A stretch of DNA of 64,000 nucleotides from [Candidatus Thermochlorobacteriaceae] bacterium GBChlB. GTDB lineage: Bacteria > Bacteroidota > Chlorobiia > Chlorobiales > Thermochlorobacteraceae. A program made the position numbers and the translations under genes. Each line of letters starts with the position of its first letter. Position 1 is the stretch's first letter. Location of the stretch: NCBI GenBank assembly GCA_000724175.1, contig JPGV01000023.1, positions 1 to 64,000 of the forward strand, read 5' to 3'. Below the pieces are notes generated by a model. That model had not been told where the DNA came from. It did no database searches and saw only the letters and a program-made list of their open reading frames with translations. Below, piece after piece: positions 9,839 to 28,277 of the stretch.

Positions 9839-11308
9839 ATGTCGCATTTCTCGTTGCTCGATTGGGCAATCGTGTTTCTTTATCTCGGCGGCGTTACCGC
9901 ATTTGGTCTTTTCAAGGGTGGCAAGCAGCAATCGGCGAAAGACTATTTTCTTTCCGAAGAAAAAATCAATTGGATCACCGTCGCGCTCTCTATCGTTGCG
10001 GCGGAAACATCGACGATAACCTTCATCTCTGTGCCGGGCATCGCTTACACGAGCAACTTTAATTTTCTTCAACTCGCCTTCGGCTATCTCATCGGGCGCG
10101 TCTTCGTGGCGCTCTACTTTCTGCCGCGCTACTACGAGGGCGAACTTACCACTGCTTACGTTTTCATCGAGAAACGATTTGGTCTCGGGATTCGGCGGTT
10201 GATGTCGAGCGTGTTTATCATTACGCGCATTTTCGCCGAAGGCGTGCGGCTCTACACGCCCGCCATTCCGCTCGTCGTCATTCTCAAAGGGTATAATCTT
10301 TTCACTGGGGTTTCCGACTCGATGCTCTACGTCGTTGCGATTCTCTTCACGTCGGCATTGACGATTCTCTACGTGCAGTTCGGCGGCGTGCGCGCTGTCA
10401 TTTGGACGGACTTCATTCAACTCTTTGTGTATCTGTTCGGCGGACTTGCGGCGCTGCTCATTTTGCTTGGCAAAGTTCCTGACGCCAATGCGTCGCTCTC
10501 GATGCTTGCCGCACAAGGGAAGTTGGACGTTTTTAACTTCAGCTTCGATAATTTTTTCTCGACGCCGTATCAATTTTTTCTCGCGCTCTTCGGCGGCGCG
10601 TTTCTCTCAATGGCGTCGCACGGCACAGACTATCTCATCGTGCAACGGCTTTTTACAACCGATAATTTGAAGGACAGCCAAAAAGCCATCGTCCTGAGCG
10701 GCGCAATCGTCATTGTTCAATTCACAATTTTTCTGTGCGTCGGCTCGCTCTTGTATGTGTTTTACAACGGCGTTCAAATGCGCGGCGACGAGGTGTTCTC
10801 AAAGTTCATCATTGAAGGATTACCCAATGGCGTTTCAGGCTTAATCGTGGCAGGCATTTTCGCCACAGCAATGTCGACGCTCTCGACAGCAATTACGTCG
10901 ATTTCAAGTTCAACCGTGTTCGATTTGTATGCAAACACGGAGCATGGCAAAACAGCAAGCGAGCCAGAGAAATTTAGATTCGCCAAACGCGCGTCGTTTC
11001 TTTGGTCGATTGTGCTGACGCTGGCTGCGCTGGGTTTTATTGGGCTTGAAAAGCGCGTCGTTGATGTTGCGCTCTCGATTGCGTCATTCACTTATGGCGG
11101 ACTGCTCGGCGTTTTCTTTTTGGCGGTTTTCTTCAAGGGCGCCACTGCGCGCAGCACCGCAGCAGGTTTTCTCGTCAGCGTCGTCGTTATGGCTTACATC
11201 ATCACACAAACCACGCTCGCTTGGACGCTCTATGTCATTCTTGGCAGTTCCCTCACGCTTCTCACGTCGCTCTTGGTCTCTCGTTTTGAACCTGCGGAAG
11301 CGGGTTAA
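9839..11308 (+). CDS. Sodium:solute symporter (SSS family)
   Basis: The protein has 489 residues and about 13 hydrophobic segments, as in the SSS family of inner-membrane sodium-coupled transporters. Family features include SAKDYFLSEEKINWITVALSIVAAETSTITFISVPG near the start (the sodium-site helix), the GGVRAVIWTDFIQ motif and the GLIVAGIFATAMSTLSTAITSISSS segment. The substrate cannot be read from sequence. Its convergent neighbour is a NamZ-like N-acetylmuramidase. SSS transporters carry N-acetylmuramic acid in Tannerella, so an amino-sugar substrate is a reasonable guess. Its stop overlaps the stop of the convergent gene by 4 bases. Confidence 0.92.
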   Translation: MSHFSLLDWAIVFLYLGGVTAFGLFKGGKQQSAKDYFLSEEKINWITVALSIVAAETSTITFISVPGIAYTSNFNFLQLAFGYLIGRVFVALYFLPRYYEGELTTAYVFIEKRFGLGIRRLMSSVFIITRIFAEGVRLYTPAIPLVVILKGYNLFTGVSDSMLYVVAILFTSALTILYVQFGGVRAVIWTDFIQLFVYLFGGLAALLILLGKVPDANASLSMLAAQGKLDVFNFSFDNFFSTPYQFFLALFGGAFLSMASHGTDYLIVQRLFTTDNLKDSQKAIVLSGAIVIVQFTIFLCVGSLLYVFYNGVQMRGDEVFSKFIIEGLPNGVSGLIVAGIFATAMSTLSTAITSISSSTVFDLYANTEHGKTASEPEKFRFAKRASFLWSIVLTLAALGFIGLEKRVVDVALSIASFTYGGLLGVFFLAVFFKGATARSTAAGFLVSVVVMAYIITQTTLAWTLYVILGSSLTLLTSLLVSRFEPAEAG

Positions 11309-12528
11309 TACAACCGCGCTCTTTTGTATTGTTCATCGATTCCGTCGATACTTTTTTGAGCGGCGCGCGTGATTTCTTCAAACGATTTCCCTGCGTCGAG
11401 CATCAAACGCAGGGTGTTCGTGCCGACGAGCTTATCAAAAAAATTTCCTTTGTTCATCCACCGCACGTTCTCCGAGTGATTTTTTTTCAACGCCGCCAAC
11501 AATGCAACCGCGACGCTGAACGGTTGGAATGCGTTTCGGTCGACCACAATTACCCTAACGCCGAAACATAGGTTATCTCGATACTTCGGATTCTCCGATT
11601 TCCCTTTTATCGCTTTTGGCGTGAAAGAAATGGTGTCGAAGCGCACTCCGCTCAAGTTGTATTGTTTGAGTTCATTGATGAGTTTTACGGCATCGATGAA
11701 CGGCGCGCCGATAACTTCAAACGGCGTTGATGTTCCGCGTCCTTCGCTCACGTTCAGCCCTTCCAAAAACACTGTTGCAGGATAGAGAATCTCCGCGTCA
11801 ACGCTTGCAAGATTCGGCGAAGGGGCGATAAACTTTAAGGTCTTGACGCTGTCAAAAAATTGAGTTCGGTCATAGTTCTCCATTTTGACCACTGTCAGTT
11901 TTAGCGTCGGCAGTTCTTCGGCTTGAATGAGCGTTGCAAGTTCGCCGATTGTCAAGCCGTGAATAAACGGCACTTTCACCAGCCCGACGAACGACGAAAA
12001 CGCCGTATCGAGCATAAAGCCTTGCGGCGCAATCGGCGCAATTGGATTTGGTCGGTCAAGCGCCATGAATTCCTTTCCTGCGTCGGCGCACACTTGCATG
12101 GCAAGTTTCATCGTTGAAATGTAGGTGTAGCAGCGCGTTCCCACGTCTTGAATATCGAAGAGCAGCGCGTCGAGGTCGGCAAGCATGTCTGGCGTCGGCT
12201 TGTTGGTTTTTCCGTAGAGCGAATAAATTTTCAAATCGCCGAGCGTTGAGGACGCGATTTTTTTTCCAGCTTCTTCGTCGCCCGCAAAGCCGTGTTCGGG
12301 CGCAAAGAGCGCGACGAGCTTCGCGCCGCGTTTCGCCAGTGCGTGGTAGGTCGGCGCTCCCTCAAGAGTTGTTCCCGTGCGGTTCGTGATAAGCCCGATT
12401 TTTTTGCCCTCAATCAACGCAAACTTCTTTTCCAGAAGAACGTCGATTCCGTTTTTGAGTTGCGCGGCAGCCGTAGACGCCTGTAAAATCAATGCAACGC
12501 AGGCAGAAGTGTAAAAAAACTGCTTCAT
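11305..12528 (-). CDS. DUF1343 protein, NamZ-like exo-N-acetylmuramidase
   Basis: The protein has 407 residues with an N-terminal signal peptide (FFYTSACVALILQASTAAAQ), so it acts outside the inner membrane. The body is DUF1343: IGLITNRTGTT near the start, LVALFAPEHGFAGDEEAG, LLFDIQDVGTRCYTYISTM, FMALDRPNPIAP, then GLNVSEGRGTSTPFEVIGAPF. The characterised member NamZ of Bacillus subtilis releases N-acetylmuramic acid from the non-reducing end of peptidoglycan fragments. The same activity is inferred here. Its start overlaps the stop of the DUF4149 gene by 4 bases, so it is the last gene of a coupled chain. The adjacent convergent gene encodes an SSS transporter, which could import the product. 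Confidence 0.85.
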   Translation of the reverse strand: MKQFFYTSACVALILQASTAAAQLKNGIDVLLEKKFALIEGKKIGLITNRTGTTLEGAPTYHALAKRGAKLVALFAPEHGFAGDEEAGKKIASSTLGDLKIYSLYGKTNKPTPDMLADLDALLFDIQDVGTRCYTYISTMKLAMQVCADAGKEFMALDRPNPIAPIAPQGFMLDTAFSSFVGLVKVPFIHGLTIGELATLIQAEELPTLKLTVVKMENYDRTQFFDSVKTLKFIAPSPNLASVDAEILYPATVFLEGLNVSEGRGTSTPFEVIGAPFIDAVKLINELKQYNLSGVRFDTISFTPKAIKGKSENPKYRDNLCFGVRVIVVDRNAFQPFSVAVALLAALKKNHSENVRWMNKGNFFDKLVGTNTLRLMLDAGKSFEEITRAAQKSIDGIDEQYKRARLY

Positions 12529-14202: not shown

Positions 14203-15384
14203 TTAGCCTGCGTAAGGGTGGTCAATATAAGTTTTTGCGAGTTGATGTGAGTTTTGATAGTCTTTCATTTGCAACACTTTTTTGTAATGCGCAACCGCCG
14301 TCGCGTGATTGCCTTGCAAGTCGTAAATCATGCCAATGCGCAGCATGGTGAGCGCGTGATACGCCGAGGGTTCCTTATCGACTTTTTTACAAATCTCTTC
14401 GGCGTGTTTGAAATGCTCGTGCGCCTCAGCGATTTTCTTGTCGTTCATCAGCGACACACCAATGTGAAAATGCGCTTCGCGGGCGAACCGCTCATTGTAA
14501 GTTTTATCGCCCGATTGATATTTTTTCAAGATGTCTCGATAAATCGTTTCAGCGTCTTTCCAGAACCCACTTGCAGCGTAAGCACGCCCAAGGTAGGCGT
14601 AGAAGACGGAGTTTTTGGGATACTTTTCGCGCAACTGTTTTGCGTATTGCAACGCTTTCAGAAAATCGCGCTCATAACTGTAATAAATTTGCAGAAGAAA
14701 ATAGAGCGATTCAGTGCGGGCATAACGCGATTTTTCTGCGCTCATCTCCAACTGCGCGATGCCTTTTTTCTTATCGCCTTTTGGAAACAAGAGCGCAAGC
14801 GGCTTGACAGCGGGAATTTTTTCGGGAATTACTTCTGCGTAGTAATTGTAAAGTCCTAATCCAAAAAGCACGTCGTAATTTTCTTTATCGATTTTTCGAA
14901 GTGTGTTCACGAGCGGCAGCGCGTCTTTGCCGTCGCTGGCGGCTTTCAGCCAACTTTCACGATTCGCCCGCAGGCGTCCGCGAAATCCCAACGCACCGCA
15001 TTTGAAAAACAGCGCCTCGACGTCCTGCGAGTTCCGTTCCAGACGCTCGTCGCAGACCTCAATGACTTTTTCCATTAAGTCGCTGAATCGGTCGTCGTAG
15101 TCGGTGTTGTCCATATCGAGCATCATTCGCCACCAAAGTGTCATGCCGATGAAGAAGTGTCCGACAGGACTTTTCGCGTCTTTATTGACGATTTCAGTAA
15201 AAATTTTATCGGCTTTGTCAAAGTCAAGATTGTAAATAAGTTCAATGCCTTCATCAATTTGCTTGCTATACACCGTTACCAATTCAGGCGCGACAGTTCT
15301 GCGCTCGATTTGAGCCGACACTGGTGAGAGCCAGAAAAGCAGGAGCAGACAGGGCAGTATTTTTCCCAGAAAGTTTTTTTTCAT
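14203..15384 (-). CDS. Exported tetratricopeptide repeat protein
   Basis: The protein has 393 residues. A signal peptide (ILPCLLLLFWLSPVSAQ) is followed by several TPR-like helical repeats. The clearest are FDKADKIFTEIVNKDAKSP near residue 60, FLKALQYAKQLREKYPKNSVFYAYLGRAYAASG, and HATAVAHYKKVLQMKDYQ near the end. It is probably periplasmic or outer-membrane attached and a scaffold for protein contacts. It begins a minus-strand chain (EVE, TSUP, DUF4149, NamZ-like). It is separated from the ExbB/ExbD/giant-TPR cluster by a strong terminator, so it is likely a separate transcription unit even though it shares the TPR theme. Confidence 0.82.
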   Translation of the reverse strand: MKKNFLGKILPCLLLLFWLSPVSAQIERRTVAPELVTVYSKQIDEGIELIYNLDFDKADKIFTEIVNKDAKSPVGHFFIGMTLWWRMMLDMDNTDYDDRFSDLMEKVIEVCDERLERNSQDVEALFFKCGALGFRGRLRANRESWLKAASDGKDALPLVNTLRKIDKENYDVLFGLGLYNYYAEVIPEKIPAVKPLALLFPKGDKKKGIAQLEMSAEKSRYARTESLYFLLQIYYSYERDFLKALQYAKQLREKYPKNSVFYAYLGRAYAASGFWKDAETIYRDILKKYQSGDKTYNERFAREAHFHIGVSLMNDKKIAEAHEHFKHAEEICKKVDKEPSAYHALTMLRIGMIYDLQGNHATAVAHYKKVLQMKDYQNSHQLAKTYIDHPYAG

Positions 15385-15452: not shown

Positions 15453-15481
15453 AAAAAAAGCCAAGTGTTGGGCTTGGCTTT
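15453..15481 (-). terminator. Intrinsic terminator after the motor-type cluster
   Basis: A perfect 9-bp stem (AAAGCCAAG with CTTGGCTTT) encloses a 7-base loop. On the minus strand it is followed by a run of seven T. It lies 22 bases past the stop of the small exported protein gene and therefore ends the 15.5-28.3 kb cluster. On the plus strand the hairpin is followed by GAATTTTT and might also work. Confidence 0.85.
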
Positions 15482-15503: not shown

Positions 15504-15902
15504 TCAGTTTCGCTCACGATTAACCACCTCGCGCGGTGAGGCTTGAAGCGGCTTTTCGGTGATTTTGTTGCTGAAGAGCGTCTGGCGGGCGCGGCTCTCG
15601 ACTTCTTTGCTGATGTCTCCGAAACGGCTTTGGTCAGTAACAACGTCAATTGGCATACGTTCGATGTTGAACTTCACGCGCGGCGTTTGCACGCGGTATT
15701 CGATTTTGATGGCGTCAAGCACGATGTCTTGATCACGCTTCTGATTTTGTAACGCAGATTGACTTCCGCCTGTCACTCCCTTTTTGCCTTTTGCGATTTT
15801 TGGAACGGTTTTTCCCTTCGGCGCTTTCTGCGCGAACACTGATTCCGCTGATAGGCTTACGCACAGCAGAGCAAGCAGCAAGAGTCCGAACGCTTTTTTC
15901 AT
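15504..15902 (-). CDS. Small exported basic protein, unknown function
   Basis: The protein has 132 residues from the ATG at 15902. It starts with a clear signal peptide (AFGLLLLALLCVSLSAESVFA). A Lys/Gly/Pro-rich stretch (KAPKGKTVPKIAKGKKGVTGG) and a mixed-charge C-terminal part with LDAIKIEYRVQTPRVKFNIERMPID follow. I recognise no family. It begins 19 bases after the stop of the giant TPR gene and is the last gene before a strong terminator, so it belongs to the same operon and may be an accessory subunit. The frame is open to 15935, but those residues precede the signal peptide and overlap the giant gene. Confidence 0.65.
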   Translation of the reverse strand: MKKAFGLLLLALLCVSLSAESVFAQKAPKGKTVPKIAKGKKGVTGGSQSALQNQKRDQDIVLDAIKIEYRVQTPRVKFNIERMPIDVVTDQSRFGDISKEVESRARQTLFSNKITEKPLQASPREVVNRERN

Positions 15903-15921
15903 CGTTGTTTCTAAACGGTTA

Positions 15922-18900
15922 TTATTTGACATCAACTTCTTTCTTGATTTCCTTTTGCGCCTTTTTGCGCTTCTCGACCAGCACTTGAATCAGTTTTTTC
16001 AAATCATCATCTTTGATGTCGCCGAAATACGACAAGTTGAACACGACTTTCAATCCTGCGCCTTTTTGGAGCGTGCCGGGTGCGCGAATCGCCAAGAGGT
16101 TTTTCCCTTCCACCACAAAATCCGACACGTCCAAGAGCATTTGCGTGTTGTCAAGCGTCGAGTCTTCGGGAACAAGATTTTTGAACAACCGCACTTTGTC
16201 GGAGCCGACTTGCGTATCATTCACATAGACCTCGAGAGAGTCAAACGGGAAGTCGCTTGCCAAAGCAATCTGGGCGATTTCCTTTGCGCCTTTGAAATCA
16301 AATTCTTTTCTGAAATACACATAATCAGGGCGTTTTGGACCTTGCGCGACTGGCGCAGGCGGCTTGACCGTCAAGTTATTTACGACACTTTTGACGTTCT
16401 TCACGGCTTTGGCGGCAGCTTCTGCGCCCGATTTCGCGGCGTCGTCGGCGACTTCTCCGCTCAGCGTTACCGCGCCATTTTTCACGTCAGAAACGGTTGC
16501 GCCTACAAATGTGCTTATCGCTGCTTCGACTGCTTTTTTCAGGTCAGCATCTTTCTTGCTCAATTTTTTTCCCGACTGCGCGAAATGCTGCTCCAACACC
16601 ACCGCGTTGAATATGCGCTTACTTTGGTGAGTGAGATTTTTTTGGCCGTTCAATTCCAATACACCTGTCTTTTTGCCCGATTTGGTTACTTTGAGCGTTG
16701 TAACCGTATCGGTGGTTGATTTTCCAGCCTTCAATTGAGCCGCTTTCACGCCCTTGCCTTTGAGCAGATTGATGATTTCGGTAACACGCTTCGGCACCGT
16801 TTTCTTCGCGTCTTTATCGGAGAGGCCAACACGGCTGGCGTTCACTTCCATCACCAATTTTGAATCTTCCTTGAACTTGGCAACAAGGCTGTCGAGCGAT
16901 TCTGCGCCACTTACAATTTTTGAACCCGTGCTGTCAAAGGCAATGTTGGTTGAAATCACCTCGCCGACGCTGAGATAGTTAATCACAGGTTTAGGCGGCT
17001 CAACGGCGCCGACAGTGTCTTTCTTGACCTCGCCGCCTTGTGGCTCACCGTCTTTCTTGACCTCGCCGTCTTGTGGCGCAACGCCCGCCGAATCTTTCTT
17101 CACAGGCTCGTTCTTCGGAGCTGGTGGCGGTGGGGCTTGCTCAACGATTGGCGTCGCTTTCTCATACCAGATGGCTCTGGCAGAGACTTCTTTGCGTGCA
17201 AAAGTCGTGTCGGTGATTTTCGTCAGGTAGCTGATTTGACGAGTTTCATCGTTTTCAACCACGCCTTTGAAGTTTGGCGACGAGTAATCGCGTTTGAACC
17301 AGTCATACTCTTTGCCCGGCTCAATGGATTCAGCGACGGTCCAATCGCTGCCCGATTGAATGGTGATTTCGGTTTTCAGTTCAGGCAGGAGTTTCAAGAC
17401 GGACGGGTCGATTTTCGTGTAAGCGAAAAGCGCCTTCGTGGTATTTTCATCTTTAATGTCGTAGTCGCTAATGAGCGTTACGGCTTCGGTCAAAATCGCT
17501 TGCGCCGATTGCTTGTATAGTTTAGCAATTGGGTCGTATTTGAGCGCGCCAAACTCCGTGTACCAGAACTTCTCGGAATTGCCAAGTTTATCCCAATCCT
17601 TGACGAGTTGCTCAAGCGCGGCGCCGCGTTGGCGATTGCCTTCGCCCATGTCGTAGAGGAATTTTGAGGCGCGCGTGGCGACTTCGTTGATTTTATTTTC
17701 GGGCGCGCCTGCTTTTTTCAAAATCTCGTAGGCGTTCAAATACTCTACAATCGCACTAAGCGTCAGCTCGTAGCCCGACTTGATGATGAAGTTCATCTTT
17801 GAAGTGCGCACGGTGAAGTCAATCACATCAGAGGCGGCAGGCTGTTTTGTTAGGCTGTCGAGCTTTCGTCGATAACCAGCGTCGTATTGGTCGAAGAGCG
17901 TATTGGCGGCGCGGGCGAGCGAGTCACTTCGGTCGACCGCTTTGGTTGCCAAATCAATAATAGCCAAGCGTGATTTCTCGACATACTCGTTCTTCAAGCC
18001 GAGTTCGTTGGAGCGGTCAATGCCGCGCCGATAAGTGCTGATGGCTTGTTCGGCAGCTGGACGAACAAAGCGGCTGGCAATTTGCCCAAGCGCGATGAGT
18101 TCTGCTACATCGCCGAGAAAGACGGTAACAGACTTTTTGCCTTTGCCGAACTTACTGCTTAATGTTTTTTGTTTCTCGTCGGCGCCCGTGTTGAGATAAG
18201 TGTAAACGCTTTTTTCGTTCACTTGTCCCGCTTTGAAATACATTTCCGAGATTTTGGATTTTGCTTTCTCGGTAACAGCATCGAGCGTGGTTACAAAGAC
18301 TTCATCGGGCACGTCGCGTCCGTCGCGGATACCGTTTTTAGAGATCCACTTTTCGGTTGGCGGCACGAGTTGAGCAAGGACTTCCTCTCCTCTTTGAGCG
18401 TTCTCAATTTTTCCAGCGCTGCTCACAATGGTTCCCAGAACAGCGGTGATGGAGTCGTTATATGAGGACAGTTTTGTTGCTTTTGCCGAATCTTCGGGCG
18501 CGATGGGCTTCAAGAAGTCTTCGCGTGCTTTCGTGAGTTGCTTGAAGGTAAAGGCGTAGTCGCCGCCGGCGCGCTCATAGTAGAACGCCGCATCGGTGTA
18601 TGCCTGAACTTTATTGACCGACAGTTTTGCATCAATGATTTTGCGCCCTTGTCGGTCAGTTACTTTGTCGAGTGTATCCGGCACGCGGCTGAACTTATCG
18701 GCAAGGTCTTCTGAGATGAAACCTGCGTTGTAGAAGGCTTCAATCGTGCGATAGCCACCGAGTTTCGCAAGTTCAAGAATGTTCTTCTCCATTTTGCGCT
18801 TGAGCGGATACTTCGCCAGCGTGTCATACTCAACATCTTTCGGCTTCGGCTTTGCAGGCAACTTTTGAGCCTGTTGTTTTGCCGGCTGGGCTTGTGTCGT

Positions 18901-21900
18901 TTTCTTTTTTGACTTCGACGTAGAGACCTGCGCTTGCTTTGGTGCCTTGACTTCTTTCGGCTTTTCAAACGCGCTGGGTTTCAAGATAACGCCGACGCCG
19001 ACCCTTTTGTAATCCTCGAGCAGGTACTTCGTCAAGCGGTGCAAACTCTCGCTCGCGGAAATGCCAGCGAACTTTTGATTATCCTTTGTGAGCTTTTCAT
19101 AACGCTCGATCGCTTTATTGAACTCGGTTTTCGCGTCGTCGATTCTTCCGCGCTCCTCGAGAAATTCGCCGCGTTTGAAGTAGGCGGTAACGCTGCGCGG
19201 TTTAGTTACGAATTTATCGGCGTAAGCACCGTAGGCTTCAAAGATGCCTTCGGTCTGACCAGACTTTTCGTTCAAACTGATTTTGTTGAACGCCACTGCG
19301 TCGCCGCGCCTCGTCGTGTCGAATCTGGCCAAATACTTGTCCGATGTCCGAATGGCTTCTTTCCAGTTCTGCGCTTCTTCGCGGGCGCGAATAGCACGGT
19401 AAAGCGCGTCTTCGCCTACATCGACCGAGTCTTGCCCATACACGTCGTAGATGCGCTCCAACGAGCCGGCCAGTCTATCGTAGTCTTTTGCAGTTTCGTA
19501 AGCGTATGTGATGCCCTTGAGCGCCTTGATTTTGTAGTTTGGGTCATTGGCATTCTCGAAGAGGTAGTTATTGACGCGCACGGCGTCGTCCGTTTTGCCT
19601 GCTTTTACATAATAGAACGCGGAGTTCTCGGCGGCTTTATCGGCATATTCCCACTTTGGAACTTCTTTCGTGATACGCTCATACTCTTTAGCCGCAGCCA
19701 GCCAGTTTTGCTTCTTGACATAGAACTGTCCTTTTTGGTCAATCGATGCGCCGACCATGCCGTAAGCGTATTTCCGACGGTCAGGGTCTTTCGGGTCGGT
19801 GGTTCTTGGACCGAAGTAAATTGCTTTTGCTATCTGCTCACTGCGGTTATAGTCTTTTTCATTGTATGCGTTGGCGGCGAGATTGATGAGCGTTCCGGGA
19901 AAAATTTCCTGAATTGGATAAAACTGCACCAAGCGCGAGTTAACCTCCTTGTATTCGTCGACATAGCCTTTGCCGATGTAGAAATCCGCCAGCGACTTAA
20001 TACCATTGACCGAAATCGAGTCGTGCGGGAACAATCGGATGTAGGCATCAACGACATCAATGAATTGCTTCTCGTCGCTGTCGAGCGAATCTGGTTTTCC
20101 TGAAAAACGCGCCAGCGTATCGAGACCGGGCTGATAAAACCCGATTTTTCTGCTGCGCGCCACGGAGTCGACGATGGCGTAGGCGTTACTAATGGCTTCT
20201 TTGCGATGGAAATCCCATGCAAAATTCTTGGCAACGTCTAAATAGCCTGCCAGCGATTCTTTTGGTCGGTTTAGTTTTAAATCCAATACCAGCGAGCGCT
20301 GAAATAGCGCGAAGTAGGCTGCCGAATCGTAGCGCGAGAAGATTTTTGTAAAGTTATCGACGTCTTGAACGAACTGTTCATAGAACACATTCGCGCGTTT
20401 TCTGTTCGGCACTTCGGCTTTCAGATAGTCGCGGTCGAAGGGCAGCGGTTGCGAGCCGTCTAAGAGCTGCGCGTAGGACAGCCCATATTCGATATTCTTA
20501 AACAGCGCGATTTTTGAGATGCTGTCCGCATAGACAAGTGTATTTGGGTCGAAGCCTGCGGGATAGACGCTTTGCTCCTCAAACGGAAGCGGAATGCCTA
20601 AGTTTTGGCTCTCAATGCGCCGCCGCATATCATTGAACCACTTGCTATTGCGCCCGTAGGTGTAAAAGAGATTCTTGCGCTCTTCATAGAGTTTCTGCTC
20701 GGTGGCTTCTTTGTCTCTGCCTTGCTTTTCGCCGTTGAGCGTGATGAGTTCAAGTTGCTTGATGACTTTATCGGCGACAAACGGCGCGCGTTCATAGTTC
20801 GGGAAACGATGCAGCAATGCTGTCCACACCAAGTTGATTTGCTCAGGATTCTCAAGCAGTTCTTCATACTTTCTGCCGACTTGTTCATAGACAAGCGGCG
20901 CATAGCGGCGCGGGCGCGGCAGTTTTGAAAAAAAGTTCTCCACAAGCTCAACAGCAACCTTACTGCGGTCGACGCTGTTTTGAATTTCAATGAACGACGC
21001 GGCGATATACTCAATCGCCTCGTTCTTCATATCGGGACGGATGTAGTCAGGCATGATTCTGCCTGCAAAGAGTTCCTCTGCCTGCTCGATATCGTCGACG
21101 AGTTGAGTAAAGTAGGTGATAGCTTCCTGATAGTTCGCCAGTCGGAAATAGCACCACCCTAACTTGTAAATCGCTTGATTGAAATACTCAGAACGCTTGC
21201 CGTTCTTTGTAATGAGGTCAAGCACCTTTCGGTAATAAGGTATTGATTCGCGCGTTTTTACGGGCTGCTCTCTTGCAAAGAAGAGATATTCTCCGATGAG
21301 CATGTAGCTATCAATGGTGTAGCGGCTGTCGGGGTATTTTCTCGTCAACTGTTGCAATAGCGAGATAGCCTCTTCGCGTTTTTGACGAATGTCCGCCTGC
21401 GAGAGTTTTTTCAGAGCGCGATAATCACCGTAGCGCTCGCCCAGAATAAACGCCTTGTTGTAAAGTGCGTCAGCCACGTAAGGGCTTTCGGGCATTTCAT
21501 TGATGATGCGGTCGTAGAGCGCAATCACCAAATCGAGTTTCGGGTCGGGCGGAATTGGTCGTCCCGGCGGCTCTTGCGGTCTGCCTACGCCTGATGTGTC
21601 GTTTCTGGCAAATGCAATAGAATCGTAAGTGGCCAACGCAATCGAGTAGTTCTCATACTCTTTGCTCGTGAGGTATTTCCGCAGTTCTTCCGTGTAGATG
21701 GAATACTTGCCGTAAAATTCGTCGGTGTGTTTTTCGTAGAGCAGGTCGGCATGGCGAATGGCGATTTCGTCCAGCACTTTGCTGTCGGAGAAGACTTTCA
21801 AAAACTGTTCGCCGACATCTAAGCCGATTTCAGTAATGTTTCGTTTTTGCGCTTTGCTTTTCTCTAATTTTTTTTCATACTCGTTCAGAATCACCTGAAT

Positions 21901-22176
21901 CTGCGGGACGGTGAAATTCGAGAAGATGTTGTCGGTTGTCGGGTCGCCAGTTCTCGCAGTCATTACGTTTCGCGGAATGAGCCGTGCAATACCGACCAAG
22001 CGGTCTTGCGCGTTTCGCACTTCGGCGGTATCAATGCGCTCGTGCATCTTATGCGTTGTAGCTTTCGCTCTGGCTTTGGCGAACAAGGGTTGAGGAGTTT
22101 GCGCAGCAACGAACAGCAGCACCGCGCAAGCAAGGAGTTGCAACAGCAAGGAACAGCTCTGTGTGTTTCTACTCAT
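15922..22176 (-). CDS. Giant exported TPR protein with OmpA-like, BON and beta-sandwich C-terminal regions
   Basis: The protein has about 2084 residues. A signal peptide (LLLQLLACAVLLFVAAQ) leads into roughly 1050 residues of TPR-like helices, for example PESPYVADALYNKAFILGE and FNQAIYKLGWCYFRLANYQEAI. A Lys/Ala/Gln/Pro-rich linker near 1075-1115 separates these from a second helical region to about 1600. A Pro/Glu/Lys linker with a repeated GEVKKD motif lies near 1690-1730. An OmpA/MotB-like region follows (about 1735-1860, with IAFDSTGSKIVSGAESLDSL), then a BON-like domain (about 1885-1945, with GAVTLSGEVADDAAK). A galactose-binding-like beta-sandwich (about 1950-2055, YVYFRKEFDFKGAKEIAQIAL) and a basic helix end the protein. 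It lies downstream of the AgmX-like gene and upstream of the small exported protein. Envelope scaffold function is inferred. ATG at 22176 is preferred to TTG at 22182. Confidence 0.85.
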   Translation of the reverse strand: MSRNTQSCSLLLQLLACAVLLFVAAQTPQPLFAKARAKATTHKMHERIDTAEVRNAQDRLVGIARLIPRNVMTARTGDPTTDNIFSNFTVPQIQVILNEYEKKLEKSKAQKRNITEIGLDVGEQFLKVFSDSKVLDEIAIRHADLLYEKHTDEFYGKYSIYTEELRKYLTSKEYENYSIALATYDSIAFARNDTSGVGRPQEPPGRPIPPDPKLDLVIALYDRIINEMPESPYVADALYNKAFILGERYGDYRALKKLSQADIRQKREEAISLLQQLTRKYPDSRYTIDSYMLIGEYLFFAREQPVKTRESIPYYRKVLDLITKNGKRSEYFNQAIYKLGWCYFRLANYQEAITYFTQLVDDIEQAEELFAGRIMPDYIRPDMKNEAIEYIAASFIEIQNSVDRSKVAVELVENFFSKLPRPRRYAPLVYEQVGRKYEELLENPEQINLVWTALLHRFPNYERAPFVADKVIKQLELITLNGEKQGRDKEATEQKLYEERKNLFYTYGRNSKWFNDMRRRIESQNLGIPLPFEEQSVYPAGFDPNTLVYADSISKIALFKNIEYGLSYAQLLDGSQPLPFDRDYLKAEVPNRKRANVFYEQFVQDVDNFTKIFSRYDSAAYFALFQRSLVLDLKLNRPKESLAGYLDVAKNFAWDFHRKEAISNAYAIVDSVARSRKIGFYQPGLDTLARFSGKPDSLDSDEKQFIDVVDAYIRLFPHDSISVNGIKSLADFYIGKGYVDEYKEVNSRLVQFYPIQEIFPGTLINLAANAYNEKDYNRSEQIAKAIYFGPRTTDPKDPDRRKYAYGMVGASIDQKGQFYVKKQNWLAAAKEYERITKEVPKWEYADKAAENSAFYYVKAGKTDDAVRVNNYLFENANDPNYKIKALKGITYAYETAKDYDRLAGSLERIYDVYGQDSVDVGEDALYRAIRAREEAQNWKEAIRTSDKYLARFDTTRRGDAVAFNKISLNEKSGQTEGIFEAYGAYADKFVTKPRSVTAYFKRGEFLEERGRIDDAKTEFNKAIERYEKLTKDNQKFAGISASESLHRLTKYLLEDYKRVGVGVILKPSAFEKPKEVKAPKQAQVSTSKSKKKTTQAQPAKQQAQKLPAKPKPKDVEYDTLAKYPLKRKMEKNILELAKLGGYRTIEAFYNAGFISEDLADKFSRVPDTLDKVTDRQGRKIIDAKLSVNKVQAYTDAAFYYERAGGDYAFTFKQLTKAREDFLKPIAPEDSAKATKLSSYNDSITAVLGTIVSSAGKIENAQRGEEVLAQLVPPTEKWISKNGIRDGRDVPDEVFVTTLDAVTEKAKSKISEMYFKAGQVNEKSVYTYLNTGADEKQKTLSSKFGKGKKSVTVFLGDVAELIALGQIASRFVRPAAEQAISTYRRGIDRSNELGLKNEYVEKSRLAIIDLATKAVDRSDSLARAANTLFDQYDAGYRRKLDSLTKQPAASDVIDFTVRTSKMNFIIKSGYELTLSAIVEYLNAYEILKKAGAPENKINEVATRASKFLYDMGEGNRQRGAALEQLVKDWDKLGNSEKFWYTEFGALKYDPIAKLYKQSAQAILTEAVTLISDYDIKDENTTKALFAYTKIDPSVLKLLPELKTEITIQSGSDWTVAESIEPGKEYDWFKRDYSSPNFKGVVENDETRQISYLTKITDTTFARKEVSARAIWYEKATPIVEQAPPPPAPKNEPVKKDSAGVAPQDGEVKKDGEPQGGEVKKDTVGAVEPPKPVINYLSVGEVISTNIAFDSTGSKIVSGAESLDSLVAKFKEDSKLVMEVNASRVGLSDKDAKKTVPKRVTEIINLLKGKGVKAAQLKAGKSTTDTVTTLKVTKSGKKTGVLELNGQKNLTHQSKRIFNAVVLEQHFAQSGKKLSKKDADLKKAVEAAISTFVGATVSDVKNGAVTLSGEVADDAAKSGAEAAAKAVKNVKSVVNNLTVKPPAPVAQGPKRPDYVYFRKEFDFKGAKEIAQIALASDFPFDSLEVYVNDTQVGSDKVRLFKNLVPEDSTLDNTQMLLDVSDFVVEGKNLLAIRAPGTLQKGAGLKVVFNLSYFGDIKDDDLKKLIQVLVEKRKKAQKEIKKEVDVK

Positions 22177-22261
22177 TTTCAAGCGTTTCTTATCCGTGTT
22201 GATTTTTTAGATTCGCGCGTTAAAAACCTTTCAAAATAGTATCACAGACGACGAGCATTCA

Positions 22262-22293
22262 CGGAAAGGGAAGACGATTGGTCTTCCCCTTTT
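22262..22293 (-). terminator. Hairpin between AgmX-like and giant TPR genes
   Basis: GGGAAGAC and GTCTTCCC form an 8-bp stem with a 5-base loop inside the 198-base gap between the two genes. The T run is short on both strands (three on the minus strand, four on the plus). It may reduce rather than stop transcription into the giant gene, or act in mRNA processing. Confidence 0.5.
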
Positions 22294-22374
22294 GCCACTC
22301 AGCCAGTTTTGACGATTGCGGTTTGCTCACGGTCGTATTTCGATGGCAATACGCTCTTGCCAGCGCGCCAGTGT

Positions 22375-23382
22375 CTATCCGTTGTCGTCGGAGAAGTTAT
22401 ACGGAATGTCAACTTGTTGAATTGCTCCAGTGTTTACCGCTGAGAACTTCATGCGGCGCATTTTCGCTTGGACGCAGCGTTTCATATTGTCGTTGGCAAT
22501 GGAGGCTTTTGCCACTTGAACATCTCTGACTGCGCCGTCAGGGCCGATTAGGACGCGCATGACAATTTCGCCTTTGAGATTTGGGTCTCCGCCTTTGGCT
22601 TCCACATAGCAGCCGTAGATGGCCGCGTTGTTGGATTTGACGACCGCCATGATTTCTTCGCGGGTGCGTCCGCCCGCGCCGACATTCATTTTTTGGAAGT
22701 TGGTGTTGATGGCGAGTTTGCCCGTTCTACCAATTCCCAGACCGCCGCCGCCGCCGCCGCCGAGCCCGCCTCTGCCGCCGGGGCCACCGAGACCACCGCC
22801 CGCGCCGCTTCCTGCGCCGAAGCCAATTCCTTCACCTGTGCCACCGAGACCTGCAGCACCGAGTCCGCCGACGCCTGAGAGTCCTCTAAGTCCGCCGCCC
22901 GCACCAGAACTGCTTAATAAACCAGACGCATCGCCTGTTGCGCCTTCGGTCGGTGTCGGAAGTCCGCTTGATTCGCCGAACACACCACCAGAGAGTGCTT
23001 CCGCCAAAGCGCTTTCAACGGCTGACGCTGCGCCAGAGGCAACAGCTTCACGAGCTGCTGCCGTGCTCACATCTGCGCCTGCAATATCGCTGCTTGCGCC
23101 AGATTGGCTCGCAATTTCTTGCTGTTGAACTTCGGTTGGTGGCGGCGGCGGAACAGCCGTAACATCAATGACAACTTTCGGTTTTTCCTTCACTACGACG
23201 CCCGATGCCAGTTGCGCGTTGATGTAATACGACCCCAACATTGAGGCAAATAAAGCCACGGCAACGATAAGCCCAATGGTCATGCGCTTTTGATATTCCT
23301 CGCGGATTTTGTAGGCAAACGGTTTCTCCGCATACCACCGCAAGGCAACCTGTGCGCCGAGTTCTGACGACCTCGTTTTCAT
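22375..23382 (-). CDS. AgmX/PglI C-terminal domain (TonB-like) energy-transducer protein
   Basis: The protein has 335 residues. A cytoplasmic N-terminal part of about 35 residues is followed by one membrane helix (MTIGLIVAVALFASMLGSYYI). Next comes a proline-rich start of the periplasmic region (VPPPPPTEV), then about 110 residues very rich in Gly, Ala and Ser. The C-terminal 110 residues match the AgmX/PglI C domain: REEIMAVVKSNNAAIYGCYVEAK, IVMRVLIGPDGAVRDVQVAK, MKRCVQAKMRRMKF. The plan is that of TonB or GltJ, which carry force from an ExbB/ExbD-type complex across the periplasm. The two cysteines of this domain are present and may pair. An AGGAGA ribosome site lies upstream of the ATG. 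It follows the two ExbD genes. Confidence 0.88.
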   Translation of the reverse strand: MKTRSSELGAQVALRWYAEKPFAYKIREEYQKRMTIGLIVAVALFASMLGSYYINAQLASGVVVKEKPKVVIDVTAVPPPPPTEVQQQEIASQSGASSDIAGADVSTAAAREAVASGAASAVESALAEALSGGVFGESSGLPTPTEGATGDASGLLSSSGAGGGLRGLSGVGGLGAAGLGGTGEGIGFGAGSGAGGGLGGPGGRGGLGGGGGGGLGIGRTGKLAINTNFQKMNVGAGGRTREEIMAVVKSNNAAIYGCYVEAKGGDPNLKGEIVMRVLIGPDGAVRDVQVAKASIANDNMKRCVQAKMRRMKFSAVNTGAIQQVDIPYNFSDDNG

Positions 23383-23441
23383 GATGTGTTTCTCCTGTTT
23401 GTATCGGAATTTCTATGTCTTTTCTCTGTCTTTGAACTACT

Positions 23442-24026
23442 TCACTTCTTTTCCAACGCAGCCAACTTTTCGCTTTCGTCAGCCTTCAGTTCAACTGTCG
23501 CCCACTTTGTAACGCCGCCGTCAAAAATTTCATTCAGCGTCTCAATCATGGTATCGTATTTCGTTTCTCGGTCAATTTTGACGACCGTGACAATGTCGGA
23601 CTTCTTTGCATTTTCGGGGTCGTCTATCACCGCCTTGCGATAATTTGCTACTTGCTTCCTCACGTCTTCAAACTTGACTCTTTGAGGTTCATTGTTCGGC
23701 CCCTCCAAGCCTCGGTGCATAAAAACTGCGCCTGTTTTGCTGATTTGAATCGTCAACACGAACTTAGGATTCACGGGCGTCGACTTACCGCTTCCGTCAT
23801 TCTTTTCAGGCAACCCCATTTGAAAGACGTTCGGCTTTGCAAACGACGTTGTCAGCATAAAAAAGGTAAGCAGCAAAAACGCGATGTCCACCATCGGTGC
23901 AAGGTCGACGTGTGATGTTTCATCGCTCTTCTCGTTGTATTTTTTAACTTTTCTGGCTTGCGCGTTGCTTTTGCCCTCGCGCATTTTATGTTTCACCTCG
24001 CGTCCTTTTTGTTCTGCGCCGCTCAT
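23442..24026 (-). CDS. ExbD/TolR family protein (second copy)
   Basis: The protein has 194 residues. A basic cytoplasmic N-terminus leads into the helix VDLAPMVDIAFLLLTFFMLTT, whose aspartate (in the MVDI segment) is the proton-carrying residue of this family. The periplasmic domain (FVLTIQISKTGAVFMHRG, then IVTVVKIDRETKYDTMIETLNEIFDGGV) is ExbD-like. The N-terminal tail of about 40 residues is longer and more charged than in Escherichia coli ExbD. It lies 28 bases after the first ExbD gene and 59 bases before the AgmX-like gene, so the stator complex may contain two different ExbD chains. Confidence 0.92.
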   Translation of the reverse strand: MSGAEQKGREVKHKMREGKSNAQARKVKKYNEKSDETSHVDLAPMVDIAFLLLTFFMLTTSFAKPNVFQMGLPEKNDGSGKSTPVNPKFVLTIQISKTGAVFMHRGLEGPNNEPQRVKFEDVRKQVANYRKAVIDDPENAKKSDIVTVVKIDRETKYDTMIETLNEIFDGGVTKWATVELKADESEKLAALEKK

Positions 24027-24054
24027 ATTTTTTTCGCGTTTGAGAGTTATCGAG

Positions 24055-24555
24055 TTACTTTTCCATTTGGGTAATCATCTGCACGTTGTCGAATTTGACT
24101 TTCTTCATCGTGAGCATGATTTCGTTAACCACATAAAACTTCGCGTTTTTGTCCGCCTTGAGCACAATCACTTGGCTGGGGTCGGCTTGTCGCGCCCGCA
24201 AGAGAATTTCAGGCATCTCTTTACGCCAATCTTTGAGTTCAATGCCTTTCGTGCCTGCCGCGTCTTTGCTGTACGGTGTGCCTTCGAAGGCTATCACGCG
24301 GGTTTTGTATTCGTCCATATTGACAACGACGCGCGTGTTGCCTTTGTCCGAACTGTCGCTGACAACAACGGTTACAAATTTTTTCTGCGGCTCTTTTTGA
24401 GCCGAGTTGGACGACGGCACTTCGACCTTTACTTCTTCATTGGTTCTGAATACGGTCGTCATCATAAAAAAGGTCAGGAGCAAAAATGCAATATCGACGA
24501 GCGGTGCAAGGTCTACTTCGTCGCCGCCGTGCATGAAGAATCCAAAAAAATTCAT
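24055..24555 (-). CDS. ExbD/TolR family protein (first copy)
   Basis: The protein has 166 residues from the ATG at 24555; a GTG at 24597 would add 14. The single membrane helix EVDLAPLVDIAFLLLTFFMMTT contains the conserved proton-path aspartate. The periplasmic part ends with IVLKADKNAKFYVVNEIMLTMKKVKFDNVQMIT, typical of ExbD. An inserted stretch around YSKDAAGTKGIELKDWRKEMP is absent from the second copy, so the two are not recent duplicates. Together with the ExbB-like protein upstream it should form a proton-driven stator in the inner membrane. Confidence 0.92.
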   Translation of the reverse strand: MNFFGFFMHGGDEVDLAPLVDIAFLLLTFFMMTTVFRTNEEVKVEVPSSNSAQKEPQKKFVTVVVSDSSDKGNTRVVVNMDEYKTRVIAFEGTPYSKDAAGTKGIELKDWRKEMPEILLRARQADPSQVIVLKADKNAKFYVVNEIMLTMKKVKFDNVQMITQMEK

Positions 24556-24650
24556 AGGTCGTGTCGTCTTGTTGTTTTTAGGTTGAAGGCTCTCCACAAC
24601 GCCATCGGCGGAAAGCCTTCTCGTGGTTTCAGAAAACTGCGACTTTTAAG

Positions 24651-25433
24651 TTAGCTGGCGCGCTCGCGTTCAGAGATAAGGTTTCTGCGCGAAATCGTCA
24701 GCGTTTGAATCACCTCGAAGGCGGCTTCGTCAATGAAGTATGTAAAGTTGTCAATTTCCGCTTTGAAGTAGTTGTATGCGGTTGTTCCAAGGATAGCCGC
24801 GAAGAGACCGCCCGCCGTATTGTAGAGTGCTTCCGAGATAGCACCTGACAGTTTCGCCGGGTCAGGCGTGCCGCCGGTTTCCGCGATGGCGTTGAAGGCG
24901 TTAATCATACCGACCGTCGTTCCCATCAGGCCGATGAGCGTCGAGATGGTGGCAATGGTTTTAATCGGCGTCAAGTTTGTTTCGTATTGCGCCGACTCAA
25001 AGTTTGCCGCTTCGTCAATGGCTTTTTGAACTTCTTGGATTTTCGCGTTAAAGCGCGGTTCGACTTCATCAAGCGAGCGATAGCGTTCCAAGCCGCTCAT
25101 AATCGAGGTCGAGACGGCGCTGTTATGACGCTCACATTTTTGCAGGGCTTCGTTGATAGCACCGCGTTCCAAATCTTGCTTAACGGCTTTGAGCAATTGG
25201 TCTAATTGTCCATTGCCACGCGATTTCTGATACGCCAACACGCGCTCGACGACGACGACAATCAACACGATGATAGCAGACATCAACGAACCGACAATCG
25301 GACCGCCTTCATAGATATTGTGCAACACCGTTCCTTTCGGAGCCGATTTAAAGACTGTGTAATAGACCGTGTATGAGATGATGACTGCGGCGATGATAAT
25401 CGACCACAAAAACAGTTTGTTCTTCTTTGCCAT
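24651..25433 (-). CDS. MotA/TolQ/ExbB proton channel family protein
   Basis: The protein has 260 residues with three membrane regions: residues about 8-28, 45-65 and a long pair near 160-215. The family core is plain: TIATISTLIGLMGTTVGMINAFNAIA, then ISEALYNTAGGLFAAILGTTAYNYF. An extra N-terminal helix stands before the usual first one. Such proteins form a pentamer around two ExbD chains and turn proton flow into motion. A strong GGAGG site lies 7 bases before the ATG, unusual in this window and suggesting good translation. It lies 75 bases after a large TPR gene and begins the ExbB, ExbD, ExbD, AgmX-like series. Confidence 0.93.
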   Translation of the reverse strand: MAKKNKLFLWSIIIAAVIISYTVYYTVFKSAPKGTVLHNIYEGGPIVGSLMSAIIVLIVVVVERVLAYQKSRGNGQLDQLLKAVKQDLERGAINEALQKCERHNSAVSTSIMSGLERYRSLDEVEPRFNAKIQEVQKAIDEAANFESAQYETNLTPIKTIATISTLIGLMGTTVGMINAFNAIAETGGTPDPAKLSGAISEALYNTAGGLFAAILGTTAYNYFKAEIDNFTYFIDEAAFEVIQTLTISRRNLISERERAS

Positions 25434-25508
25434 TTTAAGCCTCCGAGTTAGATTTTATTTGTACGTGGAACTGCGAAATTTAAGAATTAAAACGAGAACT
25501 TCAACTTG

Positions 25509-28277
25509 TTACGGCATCTGCACTTTTCTCTGCTCGCTCACGTTTGAGAGTTTCAAGTAGTCATAGCCGATGAAAAACGCACGGCGGAAATCTTTATAGA
25601 CCTCGTCAAATTCTTTTTGAAGCAAATCTGCCTTTGTGATAACCGGCCCGCCATCGTAGATAGACTCCTTATTGATTTGCTCCAAGTAATTTTCCAGCTG
25701 TGTAATTTTTTTCTTGACAGCCGTCTTGAATATGCTCACCACGCGCTCGTAATTTTTGACTTGGTCGCGTCGTTTTTTTACCTCGTCATACATCAAACCG
25801 CTAAACGCATACTGAGCAACCGTTCCAGAGCGTTCTATCGTTTCCGTTCCGTAGAATTCTTTTTGTTGCAAGAGCGTTTGCAGCGCACTGTTTTGGTCGC
25901 GCACCATTCGTGCCGCATTCAAGTAATAGGCTTTGAGCAGGTCTTGTTTTGGCTCGGTTGGCACAGCTGATTCAAGCCGCGACACTTGCTCTTCTGAGCG
26001 CGCGATTTCTTCGGCGACGATTTTTTTGTACTGCTGCAAATTTCGATTGTAGTCCGAGAGTTCTCCTGAAATCAAGACTGGTGCGTGCGTCATAAACAGC
26101 CTTGCATCGTCGTTGATGGACTGCGACGCGATAGAGACCAACTGTTCGACGGCTTTCTGCGACAACTCGGCGGAGTTGGCAAGTGCTGTCAGTCCTTTGG
26201 CGGAGAGTGATTGCTTTAGCGTGCCTAATTTTTCAGCAATTACTTGCAGCGACGCTTTGCGCTCCGGCGATAGCAGCCCCTTATCCGAATCAACAATCGC
26301 CTTACGGTCAACGACAAGCAATTCCATAGCGCTGCCGATGAGTTCCTTGAGCGCTGTTGCTGATGACACTTCGTCAGCCGTCGCCGATGAAGAGACCATT
26401 ACGCCCTGCACATTGATTCGCTGCTGCCGCAACACATCTTTCTGTACCAAGTATTTTTCCGCGTATTGAAATGCCGTGTAGCCGTTGTAGACGAAGTTAT
26501 AGTCATTGAGCGCGCGCGTCGGGTCTTGCATATATCGCGAGTGCGTAATGTACCCCGATAGAAACATCGCTTGATACAAGTTGTCCGACTGTCTGTATTT
26601 TCTGAAGTAGGTCTCGATTTCGGTTTTTGCTTCTCTATACCGACCCGACCGATACAGCACCCACAGCCGACCCAGCTCTGCAAGATCTTTATCTTTATGC
26701 CCGCGTGCCACTCGGTCGAAGTAAAGTTCTGCGTTTGCAAATTCGCTTAACGCGAGCTTTCTATAAACATCAAAACGGGCAAAGAGCACTTCGCGCTGCG
26801 CACGGGCAAGTCGCTCGCGCATGCGTTCAATTCGCTCGCTGGCAAGTTTGCCTTCTTCTTGGGCAGCAATTAAGTCCTCACGAATCTTTTCTAAGCCTGC
26901 TTCAGCGGAATTTATTTCCTTTTCGCGTTGCTGTAGCATTTCATTGAAGCGCATCAACTCTTGCTCCGACATGCTAATTGCCGCGATTTCCGACTCTAAG
27001 CTTTGCGCCATATTTTGAATGGACGTGTCCTGCATTTCAATTTTTCGGAGCACTTCCATCAGTTGCCGTTCATAGGCATTCACCTGCTTTCCAGTCGCTT
27101 GGCGCGCCAGTTCGGAGTATAGACTTGAATCGGCCGTGTGCCTTTCGCTCTCTGTGCCGTAGTAGAGTTTTCTGGCTTGCTCCAAGAACTTATTTCCTCT
27201 GATGTAAGCCAGATGGGCTAATTGAATGTAGGAAGAGTTGCGAATGTCGGCGAAACGCTCATCCCACGGAATAAACGGTCGCGAGGCTACTCTTTTGAAC
27301 TTATCTTCGGCTTCATTGTTTTGCTGCAGTCCCAAAAAGGCAAGCCCCGCTGCATAGTCCGCTAAAATTTTCAGTTCGGCGCGGTCAGGCACTTGCGAGA
27401 GCGCGTCTACAGCGCGTCCGTATTGTTGGTTGCGGTAATCAATGATGCCAGCGAGAATATATGTTTTGAAGTCAAATTCATCTTCCATTTTCAAGAACGG
27501 CGTGAGGCGACGGAAATCTTTCTGGAACTGCCGTGCGTCCTCATACACATAATCCATGAACAAAATTCGGAAAACTGCTTTCGAGGCGTAGGGCGATGTC
27601 GGAAATCCGACGAGCATTTTCTCGTAGAGTTTACGCGCCTCAATGAAGTATTTCATTCCGAAGTTAGACTCCGCTTGGAAGTACAGCACGTCGTCCATCG
27701 TGCGAATCATCGGGCTGTAGGTTTCATAAATGTCTTCGAGGTAAAGCCGCGCGGTTGGGTAGTCGCCCCTTTCGTAGCGTTCCATCGCGCTTTTGAGTTC
27801 CAAGCGGATTGCCTTTTGGACAATCGCTGGCGGCGCTGCCGACAACAGGCTTTTACGATAAGAGCGCAGCTCGTTGCGCACGCTTTGGTAGCGAGCAAAC
27901 TGATAGAATCGGTCGAATTCGTCTTTGGTCTTGAAGTTGTGATACGCGCCTTGTTCGCCGTTCTCCAAGTGTCCAAACCCGTCGATATAAATCGACCGTA
28001 GGCGCTCGATGGTTGGCGGGTTCGAGTTAAAGTCGAGTGCAATTGTCTTGATGTTCTCGTAAGCCAGCGCAAGATAGCGGTCTTTGGCGAGCAAGTCGTT
28101 GAGAAAATCTCGGTTGTTAATTTCCCGTAATGCTTGTTCAGGCAACGCGTTTGAAAAGTAAGTCTCTTGTCCCAGCGCGCTTACGGGGAATAGTGACACA
28201 GCCAGCAGCAAGATGTAGATGAACTTTTGAACTCTCAAGATTTTATCGTGTATGAGTTGTTTTGTCAAAAAAATCAT
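25509..28277 (-). CDS. Large exported TPR/coiled-coil protein
   Basis: The protein has about 922 residues from the ATG at 28277. A signal peptide (FIYILLLAVSLFPVSALGQ) is followed by TPR-like helical repeats, such as RGDYPTARLYLEDIYETY and YFIEARKLYEKMLVGFPTSPYASKAVF. A long coiled coil occupies the middle (about residues 435-505, LQQREKEINSAEAGLEKI, then RIERMRERLARAQREV). More helical repeats continue to the C-terminus (FFIGYDYLKLSNVSEQRK). It is probably periplasmic and a scaffold or regulator. It is the first gene of the ExbB/ExbD/AgmX-like/giant-TPR cluster. It resembles the TPR partners of gliding and cell-envelope motors in layout only; I cannot claim homology. The frame is open to 28325. 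Confidence 0.85.
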   Translation of the reverse strand: MIFLTKQLIHDKILRVQKFIYILLLAVSLFPVSALGQETYFSNALPEQALREINNRDFLNDLLAKDRYLALAYENIKTIALDFNSNPPTIERLRSIYIDGFGHLENGEQGAYHNFKTKDEFDRFYQFARYQSVRNELRSYRKSLLSAAPPAIVQKAIRLELKSAMERYERGDYPTARLYLEDIYETYSPMIRTMDDVLYFQAESNFGMKYFIEARKLYEKMLVGFPTSPYASKAVFRILFMDYVYEDARQFQKDFRRLTPFLKMEDEFDFKTYILAGIIDYRNQQYGRAVDALSQVPDRAELKILADYAAGLAFLGLQQNNEAEDKFKRVASRPFIPWDERFADIRNSSYIQLAHLAYIRGNKFLEQARKLYYGTESERHTADSSLYSELARQATGKQVNAYERQLMEVLRKIEMQDTSIQNMAQSLESEIAAISMSEQELMRFNEMLQQREKEINSAEAGLEKIREDLIAAQEEGKLASERIERMRERLARAQREVLFARFDVYRKLALSEFANAELYFDRVARGHKDKDLAELGRLWVLYRSGRYREAKTEIETYFRKYRQSDNLYQAMFLSGYITHSRYMQDPTRALNDYNFVYNGYTAFQYAEKYLVQKDVLRQQRINVQGVMVSSSATADEVSSATALKELIGSAMELLVVDRKAIVDSDKGLLSPERKASLQVIAEKLGTLKQSLSAKGLTALANSAELSQKAVEQLVSIASQSINDDARLFMTHAPVLISGELSDYNRNLQQYKKIVAEEIARSEEQVSRLESAVPTEPKQDLLKAYYLNAARMVRDQNSALQTLLQQKEFYGTETIERSGTVAQYAFSGLMYDEVKKRRDQVKNYERVVSIFKTAVKKKITQLENYLEQINKESIYDGGPVITKADLLQKEFDEVYKDFRRAFFIGYDYLKLSNVSEQRKVQMP

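Follow-up and report, generated by a model that had tools for sequence, protein, structure and literature searches.

The gene cluster at 15504-28277 on the minus strand of the window (the whole 64,000-nucleotide stretch analysed) is real, conserved and under-described, and represents a variant of the TonB/Tol/Agl class in which the motor has been replaced. Our tentative reading, held with somewhat less than even confidence, is that it encodes a Tol-Pal-like, proton-driven trans-envelope force transducer in which ExbB/ExbD and an AgmX-type protein work on giant TPR scaffolds, the motor being a duplicate of a TonB energiser. The parts, their conservation, the orthology of the scaffold in family f5 (of the same phylum, but of another class and outside this order), the origin of the motor genes and the mutual exclusion of cluster and Tol-type motors across the genomes compared all emerged directly from the computational comparison. 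The window lies on contig C23, one of 51 in the 3.05-Mb genome (G000) of a Thermochlorobacter-like member of the Chlorobiota; its ExbB is 85% identical to that of Candidatus Thermochlorobacter aerophilum, and the other near matches come from Thermochlorobacteriaceae and Chloroherpetonaceae. The features are as follows.

28240-28268, minus strand: sigma-70-like promoter match (11/12, TTGACA-17-TAAAAT; a consensus match alone)
25509-28277, minus strand: exported TPR/coiled-coil protein (907-922 aa, start unsure), with a TPR solenoid and long coiled coils, predicted all-helical
24651-25433, minus strand: ExbB/TolQ-type proton-channel subunit, 260 aa (Pfam/NCBIfam, TolQ/ExbB structures, tree)
24055-24597, minus strand: ExbD1 with the channel Asp, LVDIAFLLL (Pfam/NCBIfam, alignment of the channel Asp, tree)
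23442-24026, minus strand: ExbD2 with the channel Asp, MVDIAFLLL (Pfam/NCBIfam, channel Asp, tree)
22375-23382, minus strand: AgmX-type transducer with one TM helix, a Pro/Gly-rich linker and an AgmX/PglI (TonB-like) C-terminal domain
15922-22182, minus strand: giant exported TPR protein, 2084 aa from ATG 22176; a TPR array followed by OmpA-like, BON and C-terminal jelly-roll domains
15504-15935, minus strand: small exported protein, ~132 aa from ATG 15902
15457-15481, minus strand: intrinsic terminator 3' of the small gene (folding -13.5 kcal/mol, z -4.05)
14203-15384, minus strand: another exported TPR protein (393 aa), past the terminator

All seven open reading frames of the cluster were present, with intergenic gaps of <100 bases except for ~195 bases separating the AgmX gene from the giant one, and the terminator folded better than 200/200 shuffles. 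The sequence-only reading, which had taken the seven minus-strand genes for one unit closed by a strong terminator, was borne out on both counts. The first TPR gene starts either at ATG 28277 or at TTG 28238, beside the promoter match at 28268-28240, and for ExbD1 the probable start is ATG 24555, the one used in its relatives. The TPR gene beyond the terminator adjoins the cluster in L003, L006/L044 and L043, not in L004, L008 and L045, and by its gene neighbourhoods appears to be an optional associate. Further downstream, at 11305-12528, lies a gene for a NamZ exo-beta-N-acetylmuramidase, with a homolog likewise downstream of the cluster in L043 and L044.

Domain searches supported the motor and transducer assignments. 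ExbB matched MotA_ExbB at 2.4e-27, the two ExbD proteins were matched at E 7e-20 and 7e-21 (Pfam/NCBIfam), and the AgmX/PglI C-terminal domain scored well above its cut-off (NF033768, 71.2 bits, cut-off 40, E 5.7e-20), with a Cys pair that is kept among the cluster copies. What had been read from the letters as proton-path aspartates in both ExbD helices, an ExbB core, an AgmX C-terminal domain and a 2084-residue exported protein therefore stood. Models of particular systems fell below their cut-offs: for AgmX, the TonB C-terminal models (TIGR01352, 24.5 of 27.1; PF03544, 19.8 of 24.6) and, by far, the full-length GltJ and GltG models (56.9 of 450 and 47.9 of 650 bits); for the motor proteins of the window, TolQ (85.1 of 221 bits) and TolR (51.0 and 40.8 of 127.3); and for the TPR proteins, YbgF (45.5 and 31.4 bits, cut-off 90.1).

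Both large scaffolds resemble the TPRs of CpoB/YbgF and BamD, with the YbgF/BamD-like matches in the first TPR protein below cut-off. The structure model of that protein had a mean pLDDT of 65, reaching ~83-93 across residues 120-310, and a fold search with it returned generic TPR solenoids and nothing more specific. In the giant protein (queries started 11 residues inside the 2084-residue form), TPR and BON were matched by Pfam/NCBIfam, and the modelled C-terminus fits OmpA/Pal-like, BON and jelly-roll folds in a low-confidence model (pLDDT 58). The jelly roll is conserved, its profile being strong only in families f1, f2 and f5. The OmpA-like and BON domains were confined to this genus and its nearest relative; since most relatives are without them, wall binding would not be a general feature of the cluster, and the idea of these domains as its defining wall anchor was dropped.

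Relatives of single cluster proteins also occur elsewhere. The giant protein has a partial paralog of 641 aa, with no motor gene beside it, on contig C30 of G000 (L049, 8242-10167; profile E 4e-94), and similar partial copies are present in G125, G079 and G277. Solo AgmX-type proteins without a motor were found on contigs C25 (L130, 8727-9785) and C15 (L131, 9816-11291) of G000 and on G079:C23 (L051, 13742-14149); one stands beside an MCE/MlaD-like gene, others are short exported C-terminal domains, and in some solo proteins the Cys pair seen in the cluster AgmX has been lost.

The order TPR-ExbB-ExbD-ExbD-AgmX-giant-small was intact in every complete locus read (L004, L006/L044, L008, L043 and L045) and held up to the contig ends in L003, L005 and L007, the cluster mostly lying directly after trxB in the relatives (Thermochlorobacteriaceae and Chloroherpetonaceae). 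An order kept across these loci is not a matter of chance, and the splitting among unrelated loci in close relatives that would have spoken against a unit was not seen. The giant protein was present in the sampled genomes of f1, f2 and f4 and was not found in any sampled Chlorobiaceae (f3). Within the order, 12/81 genomes had an AgmX domain above cut-off, each belonging to f1, f2 or f4; elsewhere in the phylum the cut-off was passed only in f5 and in scattered genomes of f17 and f49. A search of a plasmid collection gave only distant ExbBs, all <60% identity.

Contrary to the earlier proposal, the cluster is not specific to this lineage: orthologous scaffolds are also found in f5, where the locus reads dnaE-trxA-trxB-TPR-giant-small-ExbB-ExbD-ExbD-AgmX-aspS. 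Profiles built from Chlorobia only matched the f5 TPR protein (1.2e-113), giant protein (4.8e-216) and small protein (1e-9 to 1e-10), which indicates that the f5 and Chlorobia scaffolds are orthologous, at the same dnaE-trxA-trxB site. The scaffold profiles also weakly hit ~1000-aa TPR proteins in f14, f18 and f34, which may reflect only the general likeness among TPRs.

The f5 ExbB and ExbDs are of a deeply diverged type, one ExbD having Asn in place of the channel Asp. The ExbB of our cluster fell within the TonB-type ExbB clade (99/97), apart from the f5 cluster ExbB, and a single clade for all cluster ExbBs was rejected (p-AU 7.8e-5). Similarly, ExbD2 grouped with the TonB-operon ExbD2 (100/99), and all cluster ExbDs lay within the TonB-type ExbD group (95/92). 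The closest relatives of the window ExbB, ExbD1 and ExbD2 belong to the TonB energiser on contig C33 of the same genome (ExbB identity 43%). The simplest history would be that a duplicated ExbB-ExbD-ExbD of the TonB operon displaced an older motor on a conserved scaffold. The f5 motor type is shared with f14 (100/98, the f14 branch being long), which favours it as the older one; the reverse order, with the f5-type motor as the later arrival, appears less favoured. The tree of the AgmX C-terminal domain was poorly resolved and did not separate a transducer that was kept from one replaced along with the motor. If the swap is true, an envelope machine can have its ion-driven motor exchanged and keep both periplasmic scaffold and gene site. 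An f14 genome (G018) carries a TPR-ExbB-ExbD-ExbD-323-aa cluster with the f5-type motor (L192, 5880-11595) as well as a TolQ-type motor beside a SPOR protein.

The descent of the motor genes from a TonB energiser, together with the TonB-like C-terminus of AgmX, would also be expected of a second, specialised importer energiser in which the duplicated motor serves particular TonB-dependent receptors through AgmX. We consider this very unlikely: no receptor was found in the cluster in any relative's locus read, the scaffold pairs in f5 with an unrelated motor type, and the giant TPR partners are, to our knowledge, foreign to known TonB systems. The earlier remark that TonB receptor and Tol/Pal genes are missing held for the cluster itself; the genome has a separate ExbB-ExbD-ExbD-TonB operon on contig C33.

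MotA/ExbB genes were catalogued across 12 genomes and read with their neighbourhoods, Pfam and the ExbB tree. A Tol-type motor was missing from 6/6 cluster-positive genomes and present in 6/6 cluster-negative ones. The former (G000, G133, G005, G087, G001 and G006) had the cluster and otherwise only TonB-type motors. Among the latter, two Chlorobiaceae genomes (G010 and G052) had the canonical TolQ-TolR-TolA-TolB-Pal-YbgF order plus a TonB-type motor (Pfam-confirmed in G010), and G018, G100, G147 and G007 had a TolQ-type ExbB. By family, the census genomes of f1, f2 and f5 combined TonB-type motor(s) with the cluster, and those of f9, f14, f18 and f34 combined a TonB-type with a TolQ-type motor, the latter beside SPOR-domain proteins in f14 and f18. 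This exclusivity covers 12 genomes, amounts to ~2 independent contrasts and, for the cluster-positive genomes, concerns TolQ-type motors only. TolB and Pal were not among the cluster proteins; both are in the Chlorobiaceae operon L194.

Because the cluster is exclusive with Tol-type motors, envelope maintenance would have the best comparative support among envelope maintenance, gliding and secretion. Against a Tol-Pal-like role, the f14 cluster of TPR and motor genes coexists with a Tol-type motor. Identifiable tol-pal loci are reported to be lacking in Bacteroidetes, and other outer-membrane-stabilising systems have been suggested as still undiscovered (PMC12204202); the cluster is a candidate for such a system, which, if right, would explain how a whole Chlorobiota branch does without a Tol-type motor. 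The sequence-only reading had preferred a surface-motility, envelope-maintenance or secretion machine over nutrient uptake or cell division; a dedicated proton-driven envelope machine, and not a classic TonB/Tol operon, is supported. One f18 genome (G100:C4, L186, 3601-11509), SprA-positive and GldL-negative, has a different set: proteins of 993 aa and 608 aa, the latter with the middle and C-terminal domains of FliG, together with MotA and a MotB that carries OmpA and SPOR domains. This set may form a non-flagellar MotAB-FliG motor.

For the force path, the contacts and the physiological role, we infer the following. ExbBD, TolQR and AglRQS are likely 5:2 rotary motors (PMC9389320). Proton flow through inner-membrane ExbB and ExbD1/ExbD2 would move AgmX, a TonB/TolA-like rod whose C-terminal domain would reach into the periplasm and act on the two very large exported TPR scaffolds. 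These would grip peptidoglycan and/or the outer membrane, with the OmpA-like and BON domains as accessory grips in this genus. The proton gradient would thus be spent on keeping the two membranes and the wall joined, probably as the cell constricts, which is Tol-Pal's job elsewhere. The present motor, as a duplicate of the lineage's TonB energiser, would have replaced an older one on the same scaffold.

The cluster could instead power type IX secretion (T9SS) and T9SS-dependent gliding as a substitute for GldLM, with the SprA translocon present and the GldLM motor and GldN ring absent. Full-length SprA is present in G000 (TIGR04189, 1389 bits) and in f5; Por_Secre_tail matches number 45 in G000 and 31-148 in the other cluster-positive genomes, with none in four Chlorobiaceae; and SprA and the AgmX domain are distributed alike in the order (12/12 versus 0/69). 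GldL scored above cut-off in 71/297 genomes of the phylum, none of them cluster-positive (f1, f2, f4 and f5), and GldN was not found in the genomes of these four families tested, although divergent GldLM could escape the profiles. Cluster-positive lineages thus seem to secrete via SprA without the known motor. However, SprA occurs in 228/297 phylum genomes, all cluster-positive families included, and its co-occurrence, at first taken as a strong link, was weakened by this nearly phylum-wide spread. Moreover, many other SprA-positive families are without detectable GldL and most of them without the cluster, which is therefore not a general substitute and only weakly linked to secretion, and no T9SS gene lies in or beside it. 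We regard this role as unlikely. The wider proposal, that outside the GldLM-bearing Bacteroidota families other motors drive T9SS and gliding, with the cluster as the energiser (a TonB-derived GldLM replacement) in Chloroherpetonaceae, Thermochlorobacteriaceae and f5, seems slightly more doubtful. Outside the GldL-bearing families, most of those with SprA carry many CTD signals and no detectable GldL, and no GldN where tested. G000 has two SprA loci, L132 (C5) and L133 (C16); the C5 copy fills a 5-kb contig, is cut at its ends and could reflect strain variation within the assembly.

Chloroherpeton is a glider and the Chlorobiaceae lack motility (PMC9318685), and the cluster is found in Chloroherpeton-type families and in none of the Chlorobiaceae searched. 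A gliding motor like Myxococcus AglRQS-GltG/J, with envelope-spanning complexes moved against the surface, would account for this, and the AgmX/PglI domain of the transducer and the match of the f5 transducer to the GltG model along most of its length (4.3e-29) point the same way. Against it, the full-length GltJ/GltG cut-offs are far off, so that filing the cluster under GltJ/AgmX gliding machinery was given up; the window motor is TonB-derived; and the cluster has neither outer-membrane Glt proteins nor MglA, and no outer-membrane barrel, of which the Myxococcus machine needs several (PMC3169522). That machinery is reported absent from Bacteroidetes, and a Group B core, AglRQS-GltCDEG, is of unknown function (PMC3169522). 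Both gliding and secretion would fit the family distribution, a correlation resting on essentially one evolutionary split, and gliding too we hold to be improbable. The likeness to AglQRS with AgmX that had been pointed out earlier holds for the AgmX/PglI domain and seems not to extend to motor descent, ExbB and the ExbDs falling with TonB energisers (in a tree without an AglR sequence). If the envelope reading is right, what replaces Tol-Pal, and what powers type IX secretion without detectable GldL/GldN, becomes testable in the cultured, gliding green sulfur bacterium Chloroherpeton thalassium.

Among known systems, Tol-Pal likewise has a proton motor, a TolA/TonB-like rod and an exported TPR protein, the repeats in the cluster being CpoB/YbgF-like below the YbgF cut-off, and the cluster occurs where Tol-type motors are missing; it differs in having no TolB/Pal, two ExbDs, an AgmX-type C-terminus, giant TPR scaffolds and a TonB-descended motor, and its proteins miss the curated Tol cut-offs. 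The TPR-tolQ-tolR-tolR-vWA transducer clusters (PMC12204202) have a vWA C-terminal domain in place of AgmX, and no 2000-residue TPR protein is described for them. The TonB-ExbB-ExbD-ExbD energiser on C33, the nearest by motor descent, has a classical TonB C-terminus and no TPR scaffold genes, unlike the cluster. The T9SS machinery (GldLM motor, GldKN ring, PorE/PorW TPR proteins) likewise joins a 5:2-type proton motor to TPR proteins for an envelope machine in the same superphylum; here GldL/GldN are undetectable and the motor is of the ExbB/ExbD family. AglRQS-Glt and AglRQS-GltCDEG share one ExbB, two ExbDs, an AgmX/GltG/GltJ-type C-terminal domain and exported TPR proteins, and the f5 form of the cluster has a GltG-like transducer; in contrast, the window cluster has a TonB-derived motor, lacks outer-membrane barrels and falls short of the GltG/GltJ models.
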